From Gammaproteobacteria bacterium (lineage in GTDB: Bacteria; Pseudomonadota; Gammaproteobacteria; Pseudomonadales; Pseudohongiellaceae), in assembly GCA_009844085.1 (NCBI GenBank), contig VYCF01000021.1:62001-126000 (forward strand): a DNA stretch of 64,000 nt, in the 5' to 3' direction. A model generated the notes under the pieces. It was not told the DNA's origin and did no database searches. It was given only the letters and a program-made list of their open reading frames with translations. A program made the position numbers and the translations under genes. Below, one piece after another: positions 38,202-57,965 of this stretch. Within the stretch, counting starts at the first letter, position 1; each line of letters starts with the position of its first letter.

Positions 38202-38626
38202 GAGCGATTTCTGCGCGCCGCCACCCTTGCTACCGCGGCGGCGATCTCGCGCCGCGCCGCCTCGCGTGAAAATCCGCCGCCGCCCGCCTTCGGCCAGAGA
38301 CGGGGGTCCGGATTCGCCAGACGGAAATCGTGATATTCCTCGCGCCGTCGCCGATGCCGCAACTGCGCTTCGTCAGGCCTCGCCAAGGTCTCGGGGTTCG
38401 GGCGCATGTCGATGCAATCGGTGGGGCAGGGCTCGAGGCAAAGTTCGCAGCCGGTGCATTCGGCGCTGACAACGGTGTGCATCATGCCAGGCGCGCCGAG
38501 GATGGCGTCGACGGGACAGACCGGCAGGCATTTCGCGCAGCCGATGCATTCGGCTTCGCGGATGAAAGCCAGGGATTCCGGCGCTTCAGGGCTGCCGGGA
38601 GAAAGATTGCTCATCCAGGAGGCCAT
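38198..38626 (-). CDS. Stand-alone RnfB/RsxB-like 2[4Fe-4S] ferredoxin
   Basis: 142 residues with two CxxCxxCxxxCP motifs: [12 protein letters not shown] (C27-C37) and [12 protein letters not shown] (C57-C67). These are spaced like the ferredoxin domain of RnfB/RsxB. The N-terminal membrane helix and the extra cysteine cluster of true RnfB are missing. The C-terminal 60 residues are Arg/Ala-rich. No rnfA, C, D, G or E is nearby. It is coupled to nth by a 4 bp overlap, and its start overlaps the protease end by 41 bp. It may serve as an electron carrier for a soluble partner. Confidence 0.75.
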
Positions 38627-40112
38627 TGGAATACGCCGAGGGAATCCGATAGCGCGCCAGGATCTGCTCCTCCGAGGCCAGCGCTTCCTCGTGGTCGATC
38701 ACCATCTGGTAGCCGTTTTCGTTGCGGAACACGACGAAGGGTTCGCTGTTCTCCCGCAACATGGCAACGAACTGATTGAAATCGCGGATCGGCTCACCGT
38801 TCACGGTATGCACCACCCAGTTGCGCCAGTCGTGATAGCCGAGATTCACGTCGGCCGCCATTACCTGCAAGGCGACGACGAGTTCCTGCCGGTCGAGCGA
38901 GGCCCATTCGTTGCGCGCTTCGAGCAGGGCGATCGGCGCCGAGCGGCTCCAGTCGTTGCCCCAGCGCTTGATCAGATTCATGTTCAGCGGCACGAACAGG
39001 ACTCCGCCGTAGAGATAGTACTCGGGGATCCGGTCGAACTGTTCGGGATTGACCAGGCTGTAGCTGACTTGCGCGCCTGCGGCAGTGAGAAGTGCGGTTT
39101 CTTCCTTGCCGTCGCGGGAGAAAGTCACCGGAATCGTGTCTCCGACGTGATACTGGTCCATCGCGTACTTGTAGTTCGTCAACATCTCGTCGTTGAGCTG
39201 GATGCTGCCGTCGTCGGCGATTTCATGGCCGTCCACCGCCGTGATCACGTCGTTGACCTGAATCAAGCCATCGGCCGGCGAATCCTCGAAAACCTTGATC
39301 ACGATCACGCCGCGCTGATCTTCGCTCAGGCCCCAGGCGGCTTTCGCCGACGGGCTTTCCAGGGTCTGGGTGCGGAAGCCGAGATCGGGGAAACCGTCCC
39401 AGGCGCTGTCTTCGCTGTCTTCCAATACGTGGCGGATTACGCTGGGCGGAATGAAATAGCCGAGATTTTCGGCTCGGCCGCCGGTATTCGACTGCATGAC
39501 TATGCCGACGATCTGCTGATCGACGATGACGGGTCCGCCGCTATTGCCGGGATTGATGGCCGCGTCGAGCTGGCCGGCCAGCAGGTAACTGGAGGCATGG
39601 GCGTATATCTGGTGTTCCACGCGGGAAAGTACGCCCTGGGTGATGCTCAGGCTCTGGCCGCCGACGGGATAGCCGAATACCGACACCTCGTCGCGCAGAC
39701 TTGGTAAATCGCCAATGGTCAAGGGTTTCAGTCCCGTGTAGAACTCTTCGTCTTCAACCGTTATCAGCGCAAGATCGGCTTCGTGTGATACGAACAGCAC
39801 CCGCGCCTGGAATCGTTGCGGATCGTTGTGCCTTTGGGCCTGTACGTAACTCGCATTGGCAATGACGTGGGCATTGGTGAGGATGCGGTTGGCGTCGATG
39901 AGTACGCCGGAGCCGGATGTCTGCCGGGGGTTGAGCAGGCGCCAGGGAACGAAGTAGTCGGGGGCGGCCTGGGTGGTATGAATCTTGATGACGGAGTCTT
40001 CGATTTCCCGGATGTCGGCGTCTTGCGCGGTCACGGCGCCGCAGGCCAGCAACAGGAGGCCGGCGACGGTGCCTGACAGTGTCTTGCTCGATGGAGTACG
40101 CACGCTGTCCAC
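38586..40112 (-). CDS. Secreted S1C (DegP-like) serine protease with PDZ domains
   Basis: 508 residues from a GTG, with a signal peptide ending near VTAQD. The trypsin-like triad is His82 (TNAHVIA), Asp113 (EADLALI) and Ser191 (NPGNSGGPV). Two PDZ-like regions follow: one around 265-350 containing [20 protein letters not shown], another near 410-470 containing [16 protein letters not shown]. It resembles the plant/bacterial Deg family with an extended second half rather than classic DegP. It would act in the periplasm on misfolded or specific substrates. Copy A of the giant hairpin lies just upstream. Confidence 0.85.
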
Positions 40113-40185
40113 CCAGGTGGCCGCTACGAAATCAAACGTCGAGTATCAGCCTTGCCGCCGCTTGCTGTCAATTCGAGTTCTGTGG

Positions 40186-40314
40186 CTTGGATCCGTCGCC
40201 GCCGGGCTGGGGGTGTGTTTGGCGGACGCTGTAAATACATCCATGTACGCTGCGGCCTCGGCTTCCTGCCTCGGACGCCCGCCAAACACACCCCCAGCCC
40301 GACGGCGACTCACG
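40186..40314. repeat. Giant hairpin element, copy A
   Basis: A 129 bp intergenic element between CTTGG and CTCACG. The arms 40195-40229 and 40275-40309 pair at 32 of 35 positions. The central part carries two mini-hairpins: TACATCCATGTA (40236-40247) and a weaker GGC-TTCCT-GCC (40260-40270). It lies between the metG stop and the protease start, both on the minus strand. A second copy at 57759-57891 has the same ends and core. Its arm sequence differs but remains self-complementary. Similar ATCCATG-type repeats occur between genes in other gammaproteobacteria as I recall, but I cannot name this family. Confidence 0.8.
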
Positions 40315-40331
40315 TTGTGCGAGACCGACGG

Positions 40332-42380
40332 TCAGTTGATTCTCATGCCTGGTTTGGCGCCGGTGTCGGGATGCAATACCCAGATTTCCTTTCCGCCGGG
40401 GCCGGCGGCAAGGATCATACCTTCGGAGGTGCCGAATTTCATTTTTCGGGGTTTGAGGTTGGCGACTACCACCAGCAGTTTGTCTGTCAGTTGTTCCGGT
40501 TTGTACGCGGTGCGGATGCCGGCGAATACGGTGCGTTCGACGGGGTCTCCGGCTGCGTCTACGCCCAGGTCAAGGCGGAGGCGCAGGAGTTTGTCGGCGC
40601 CTTCGACCAGTGATGCCTCGATTACTTGTGCGACGCGCAGGTCTACTTTCGCGAATGCGTCGATGTCGATTTCGGCGGCGATTTCTTCGATGGCTTCCTC
40701 GGCGGGCGCAGCTTCGGCAGCGTTCTGGCCGCTATCCCAGCTTTGCCTTGATTCTTCGATCATGGCTTGCACCGCGGCGGGTTCGACTCGTGTCATCAGG
40801 GGCTTGAAGCGGTTGATGCGATGATCGAGCAGGAGCGAATCGAAATCGCTCCAGGCCAGGGGATCGATCGCCAGGAATTCTTCGGCGTCGGCCGCCATCG
40901 CCGGCAGTACGGGTTTGAGGTAGCCGGCGAGGAGGCGGAAGGCGTTGATGCCGGTGGTGCAGATCTGCTGCAACTCGGGCGATCTCTGGTCCGATTTGGC
41001 GATTTCCCAGGGCTTGCGTTCGTTGAGGTATTGGTTGGCCTTGTCCGCCAGCGCCATGATCCGGCGCACGGCCTTGCCGTATTCGCGTTGTTCGAACAGG
41101 TCGGCGATTTCGGCGGAAGCATCGCGGACTTCCTCGATCAGGGCCTCGTTGTCGACGGCATCGGCGAGCATGCCGTCAAAGTTCTTGCCGATGAAGCCGG
41201 CGCAGCGGCTGGCGATGTTGACCAGCTTGCCGACCAGGTCCGAATTTACCCGCTGCACGAAGTCTTCCAGGTTCAGGTCGAGATCGTCGACGCCCGGGCC
41301 GAGTTTCGCTGCCAGGTAGTACCGCAGATATTCCGGGCTCAGGTGTTTCAGATAGGTTTCGGCATTGATGAAAGTGCCCCGGGACTTGGACATCTTGGTG
41401 CCGTCCACGGTGAGGAAGCCGTGAACGAATACCGCGTCGGGCGTGCGATAGCCCGCGCTCTCCAGCATCGCCGGCCAGAACAGTGTATGGAAATTGACGA
41501 TGTCCTTTCCGATGAAATGATAGAGTTCATGGTCGCGCCCCGACTGCCACCAGGCGTCGAAATCGAGTCCCTTGCGCTTGCAATAGTTGAGAAAGCTCGC
41601 CATGTAACCGATGGGAGCGTCGAGCCAGACGTAGAAGTACTTGCCCGGGTGGCCCGGTATCTCGAAACCGAAATAGGGTGCGTCGCGGCTGATGTCCCAG
41701 TCCTGCAGGCCTTCCTCGAGCCATTCGTCGAGCTTGTTGGCGACGGCCTCGTGTACGGCGCCGCCCCGAATCCAGTTCCGCAGCATTTCCGTGAACGCCG
41801 ATACGGTGAAAAAGAAGTGCTCGGATTCCTTCTCCACAGGCGTGGCGCCGGAGAGGGCGGATTTCGGATCGATCAATTCCGATGGGCTATGGGTCGAGCC
41901 GCAGACTTCACAGTTGTCGCCATATTGGCCTTCGGCGTTGCAGCGCGGGCAGGCGCCGGTGATATAGCGGTCGGCGAGGAACAGATTCTTTTCCGGATCG
42001 AACAACTGGCGGATGTTGCGCCGGGCGATATGGCCGTTGCGTTCGAGCGCCAGGTAGATCGATTCCGACAATTCCCGGTTTTCTTCCGAATGCGTCGTGT
42101 AAAAGTTGTCGAAGCCGATCAGGAAACCGACGTAGTCGCGCCGGTGCTCGCGGTTGACCCGGTCGATCAGTTCCTCGGGCGTAATGCCCTGGCTCTCGGC
42201 GCTGAGCATGATGGCGGTGCCATGCGCATCGTCTGCACAGACGTAAATGCACTGGTGGCCGCGCATTTTCTGCAGGCGCACCCAGATATCGGTCTGGATC
42301 GCTTCCATGACGTGACCGAGATGGATATCGCCGTTCGCATAGGGCAGGGCGCCCGTAACGAGTATCTTGCGTTGTTTCAC
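40332..42380 (-). CDS. metG: Methionyl-tRNA synthetase
   Basis: 682 residues. The HIGH-type motif is H20-L-G-H23 in [10 protein letters not shown] and the KMSKS loop is in [10 protein letters not shown]. The zinc knuckle is C-x2-C-x9-C-x2-C ([17 protein letters not shown]). The C-terminal dimerisation and tRNA-binding OB-fold domain is included ([24 protein letters not shown]), as in E. coli MetG. It charges initiator and elongator tRNA-Met. It is divergent from dcd, with 130 bp between starts. Confidence 0.97.
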
Positions 42381-57758: not shown

Positions 57759-57891
57759 CTTGGCTTCGATCCGTCGCCGGCGGCTGGTGGGGTGTTCAGC
57801 GGACGCCGTAAATACGTCCCTGTAGGCTTCGGGCTCGGCATCCATGCCTCGCACGCCCGCTGAACACCCCACCAGCCGCCGGCGACTCACG
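57759..57891. repeat. Giant hairpin element, copy B
   Basis: A 133 bp element with the same ends (CTTGG ... CTCACG) and core as the copy at 40186. The arms 57773-57806 and 57853-57886 pair at 32 of 34 positions. The core carries a weak hairpin TAC-GTCCC-TGTA and a perfect one, GGCATCCATGCC. The arms differ from copy A by several substitutions and length changes, each matched on the other arm. It lies between the divergent starts of the yciB-type gene and the secreted protein at 57966, so it is not a terminator for either. Confidence 0.8.
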
Positions 57892-57965
57892 CACTGTGGA
57901 CACGATCTTGTCAACATGTTGGCTTGGGTGTAGTGTTGATTGGTATCACTTGCGGAGGCGCCATT

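Follow-up and report, generated by a model that had tools for sequence, protein, structure and literature searches.

A dispersed gammaproteobacterial repeat of the YPAL/TwoAYGGAY kind, with strand-specific arm pairing, two conserved GGA loops and a possible link to CsrA

Introduction

The closest described relative of the element considered here is YPAL/RU-2, the Yersinia palindromic sequence (De Gregorio 2006; Delihas 2007, PMC2759123), which is reported to contain internal inverted repeats, to lack TA ends, to have target duplications of 3-26 bp and to show evidence of having moved recently (PMC2759123). Two catalogued families also resemble it. "TwoAYGGAY" (RF01731) is listed as a probable RNA and not as a repeat (PMC2864571), and a CsrA-binding role has been proposed for it on the grounds of its paired GGA loops (PMC4333381); "Ysr224" (RF02770) is reported as an expressed sRNA (PMC9029176). 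In the literature searched, which was incomplete, no paper names the core sequence of the present element and none joins YPAL, Ysr224 and TwoAYGGAY.

The proteins CsrA, RsmA and RsmE act as dimers and recognize ANGGAN in the loops of hairpins, often at two sites per RNA. Sponge sRNAs of the CsrB/RsmZ type are single promoter-driven genes with many such sites. The repeat described here has in common with them the paired GGA-loop hairpins that are the CsrA/RsmA signature, but it is dispersed, has two sites and showed no promoter in simple scans of two copies. It is an uncatalogued member of a widespread YPAL/TwoAYGGAY-like kind that has been met three times under different names.

Two Elements in the Window

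The source genome, that of a marine bacterium, is a 3.43-Mb draft in 77 contigs, and the window, a stretch of 64,000 nucleotides, lies in contig 37. Two elements, A and B, are present in it at 40182-40321 and 57760-57898, both where a preliminary description had placed them although with limits a few bases wider. The giant hairpins of that description are real: each element folds almost perfectly on itself, A at -84.5 kcal/mol (z -6.7) and B at -92.5 kcal/mol (z -7.6), with 0 of 200 shuffles as good in either case. The core match was found twice, against 0.03 expected by chance.

In element A, delimited by genome search and covariance model, fold and covariation place the left arm of the long stem at 40195-40225 and the right arm at 40279-40309. 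Two mini-hairpins on the minus strand occupy 40236-40247 and 40256-40274; their TCC triplets (40240-40242 and 40264-40266) read GGA on that strand, the second 24 nt from the first. Element B, delimited by fold and covariance model, has arms at 57773-57802 and 57857-57886, again from fold and covariation, and minus-strand mini-hairpins at 57813-57824 and 57833-57852, with TCC at 57817-57819 and 57841-57843. Both elements are assigned to the minus strand, which bears GGA and, in A, is the presumed functional strand. The gene settings are as first described. Element A lies between codirectional minus-strand genes for a methionyl-tRNA synthetase (40332-42380) and a Deg-like protease (38586-40112), and element B between the divergent starts of a gene of the septation protein IspA family and an open reading frame without a Pfam hit. 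The contrast once drawn between the copies, in which A keeps the first mini-hairpin and B the second, is an accident within the family, as both hairpins survive in most copies and both are perfect in many.

Copies in the Source Genome and Covariation of the Arms

Element A as query picked out 40 copies genome-wide, and a covariance model built from 30 copies found 57 places scoring at least 91 bits. Because the two lowest-scoring places (C74:88702 and C56:55634; 91-102 bits) look degraded, the number of full copies of this 139-bp dispersed repeat is given as 56-57, and the two copies first noticed are thus far from the only ones. Three copies are 212 nt long, with a 73-nt insert in the loop of mini-hairpin 1. 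Deletion remnants of 30-57 nt (seven loci were catalogued) keep both ends but almost none of the arm sequence and nothing of the core, as is expected from deletion of a DNA palindrome; in the source genome they occupy at least six places, at 40-57 nt. A second repeat of about 40 bp, CGTCATTCTGCGCG..GCGAAGCG..GCAGAATCTC, lies some 15 nt past the right end of the element in 9 of 15 occurrences seen near elements of this genome; it is absent from the window.

In the 30-copy alignment 20 of 47 pairs are changed on both sides, giving 134 cells against 37.5 in shuffles, a comparison somewhat favored by the derivation of the structure partly from the same sequences. The signal is gone when the partner is slid by 1-3 columns, and most two-sided changes swap one Watson-Crick pair cleanly for another (GC to CG, UA to CG and the like). 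Recurrence of the same architecture with unrelated arms in other genomes is independent support for the structure. The compensated change that had been read from two copies is true of the family, and both the selection proposed to keep the arms complementary and the view of a structured nucleic-acid element are borne out.

Distribution and Known Relatives

Searched as the degenerate pattern GCCGTRAAYNYRTCCMTRNRGGCT, the core occurs in at least 118 stretches of named genomes, and among the 80 matches listed all that carry a genus-level name are gammaproteobacterial, including Stenotrophomonas, Xanthomonas, Shewanella, Marinobacter, Microbulbifer, Methylomonas, Rheinheimera and Alteromonas. Of 369 genomes sampled evenly from the class, 30 (in 27 of 272 genera) hold from 1 to 400 exact cores; the reversed pattern has no match in the same 369. 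Viral contigs gave two hits, and element B as query found none in plasmids, phages or E. coli. Among the relatives in the genus, three have 27-75 copies and most of the rest have few or none. Long complementary arms, unrelated in sequence from match to match, flank most occurrences of the core; in the named genomes complementary arms score at least 15 at 105 of 124 matches, where the 95% point of the control is 12.

The gammaproteobacterial genome with 400 exact cores, G286, holds several subfamilies (30 loci catalogued). Some of its copies are bounded by TATACC...GGTATA and carry additional GCCATGGATGGC / GCAGGAGC hairpins within the loop, and given these ends the core may ride on different carriers. 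At five other loci, elements stand in opposed pairs about 180-240 bp apart, the core-plus member first and the core-minus member second, with unrelated arms.

Comparison with the described systems locates the repeat among them. Published RU-2 (PMC2759123) holds the core GCCGTAAATACATCCATGTAGGCT exactly, followed by a second hairpin of the GCGCCATCC type. The two share the core, internal inverted repeats, ends without TA, intergenic position and multiple copies; YPAL/RU-2 differs in its length of 168 bp, in its other arm sequence and in its less perfect arms, and the target duplications reported for it have no detectable counterpart here. With TwoAYGGAY the repeat has in common two AYGGAY-loop hairpins held on a poorly conserved outer stem on the same strand, although the inner stems differ. 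Six copies match RF01731 on the minus strand and one of the 57 passes, at 43.8 bits against a cut-off of 43. Ysr224 matches the core residue by residue at 23-29 bits, against a cut-off of 70, and is annotated on the strand opposite to the GGA strand. The question of whether the element is already catalogued thus has a divided answer. Its core is that of YPAL/RU-2 and it resembles TwoAYGGAY, but elements A and B match no Rfam family at threshold. REP/BIME repeats with RAYT are likewise intergenic and palindromic and sometimes form opposed pairs, but differ in length and sequence.

Strand-specific Pairing

Mismatches within the arms are distributed unequally between the strands. Counted on the core strand, A·C exceeds G·T by 81 to 13 at 95 loci of named genomes, by 40 to 2 in the source genome and by 27 to 4 in its relatives; related copies of the source genome are not independent, and the named-genome set is the stronger of these for strand asymmetry. 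Counted by locus, 49 show an excess in one direction and 9 in the opposite one (sign test, ~1e-7). Base composition does not explain the asymmetry, because random pairing of arms between different loci yields 1483 A·C and 1766 G·T. Since an A·C on the core strand corresponds to G·T on its complement, pairing is kept on the minus strand, and there is good evidence that this GGA-bearing strand is the one selected to fold. The asymmetry appears in all arrangements of the neighboring genes, called by a crude longest-ORF rule, and is thus independent of read-through from one side. Taken alone, it cannot tell RNA from single-stranded DNA, since G·T pairs are tolerated in the latter too. An argument that G-U intermediates are missing, and that the arms are hence homogenized only at the DNA level, was rejected, as a plus-strand A·C is a minus-strand G·U.

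GGA Loops and a Candidate Role

Both mini-hairpins present GGA on the minus strand. The loop of the first reads CANGGANG in nearly all copies, a constancy partly built into the search pattern. The second lies outside that pattern, and its loop contains GGA at 83 of 94 named loci, where permuting the loop letters would give 22.8, while 74 different stem sequences occur among the same 94 loci. With a GGA-to-GGA spacing of 23-24 nt, the paired loops stand at CsrA/RsmA bridging distance. In copies at orthologous sites of G022, a relative in the same genus, a 143-nt insert adds two more hairpins of the ATGGAT/AGGGAT type (two loci); the 73- and 143-nt inserts always lie in the loop of mini-hairpin 1.

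The explanation that best accounts for these features, held with roughly even confidence, is a gene-less dispersed repeat whose working form would be the minus strand, single and folded on itself and most likely as RNA, acting as a CsrA-binding decoy or tuner. A stem of about 31 bp, its pairing preserved though its sequence is free to vary, would hold up two short hairpins whose loops, CANGGANG and ANGGAN, have a geometry predicted to dock one CsrA/RsmA dimer. Transcripts of many copies might then bind CsrA, either as a dispersed decoy or as a means of tuning the transcripts in which they sit. The link to CsrA is plausible, and action as RNA and spread by transposition are likewise inferred. 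Orientation relative to neighboring genes is neutral under the same crude gene calls, which argues against a consistent cis role, and a preferred orientation was accordingly rejected. Simple consensus scans, made on two copies only, revealed no conserved promoter or terminator for a transcript of its own. Counting against a minus-strand RNA is Ysr224, which shares the core and is modeled on the opposite (CAUCC) strand.

Mobility, Arm Renewal and Alternative Explanations

Comparison of the source genome (G000) with G022 yields the filled and empty sites that are a criterion of YPAL/RU-2, and so answers the call for empty sites in the preliminary description. The element occupies one intergenic site in G022 but not in G000 and a second in G000 but not in G022, and a third site has a full element in G000 and a short remnant in G022. 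At site A the intergenic DNA of G018 does not align and offers no usable empty site. Other marks of a mobile element were not found: over 55 copies the mean longest shared flank word is 4.15, against 4.12 in the control, giving no target-site duplication, and the neighbors are diverse housekeeping genes, with no linked transposase or other recurrent gene. Membership among MITEs was rejected, as the ends GTGGCTTCGATCC and CGCACAACGTGAG differ and duplication is lacking, and an integron attC site was dropped, as the right end varies where the GTTRRRY site should be fixed. At site B in G022 and G021, a gene block is inverted between two copies and there is a copy with mismatched arms, through either recombination between copies or assembly error.

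A distinctly less probable reading, though the most serious alternative, is a DNA element, in which one DNA strand, such as the lagging-strand template, folds while single-stranded into a hairpin that a recombinase or transposase recognizes; the GGA loops would be recognition marks, and template switching would keep the arms complementary. The high and patchy copy number (1-400 per genome), presence and absence between sister species, the instability as DNA shown by remnants keeping both ends, a pairing asymmetry independent of local transcription and the one lineage with MITE-like TATACC...GGTATA ends all suit it. Yet the element has no target duplication, no Y1 transposase in the carriers tested and no recurrent neighboring gene, and its loops match a known RNA-protein signature. 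Replication-strand polarity, too, was rejected: there is none along the contigs of the source genome, and its appearance in G286 reflects sorting by strand.

The arms raise a separate question. In the relatives G027 and G029, identity between copies is 0.33 and 0.31 at arm positions 5-18 and 0.40 and 0.31 over the whole inner arm (shuffled 0.25-0.28), whereas in the core it is 0.97 and 0.87; the arms are still about 0.95 self-complementary, and the constant outer ends are plain by eye in G027. Hairpin-2 stems are 0.53-0.55 identical between copies, and the arms thus differ more than another freely varying stem. Either the copies are old and their arms drift fast through paired changes, of which template switching is one possible source, or each act of copying renews the arms. 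It is conceivable, if rather unlikely, that the element is a selfish gene-less repeat spreading among gammaproteobacteria as a folded single strand with two putative CsrA docking loops, in which new copies gain new self-complementary arms while core and outer ends stay constant. If so, arm sequence would be free or even diversified and only arm pairing inherited.

It is doubtful that the repeat is an mRNA 3'-end stabilizer, attenuator or terminator, as proposed for REP/BIME and YPAL. Many copies lie near gene ends by the crude gene calls, the stem is very stable, and YPAL may affect the stability of upstream transcripts (PMC2759123). Against such a role, all four gene arrangements occur, including the divergent starts at element B, scans of two copies show no T-run, and a plain stem would need neither conserved GGA loops nor one-strand pairing; the earlier judgment that a terminator would not suffice therefore holds. 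A REP/RAYT (TnpA-REP) element, offered as an option at the outset, is most improbable: although the repeat is a dispersed intergenic palindrome with convergent pairs about 200 bp apart in some relatives, it is several times too long, and Y1_Tnp, with hits in 26 of 38 relatives, has none in G000, G018, G021 or G022, exactly the four genomes of the genus with most copies, which refutes this option for the lineage unless all four assemblies lack the gene within the few per cent that they miss.

Implications

The repeat joins YPAL, Ysr224 and the TwoAYGGAY RNA with an uncatalogued high-copy repeat of many gammaproteobacterial genera, and its mismatches allow selection for the folded GGA strand to be tested strand by strand. 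Strand-specific selection together with copy-specific arms are its noteworthy features, and they raise the question of how unrelated, perfectly paired arms arise between constant ends and core within one genome. If the loops bind CsrA, a genome with 50-400 copies would have a scattered store of CsrA sites, through which the level of a global regulator could be set.
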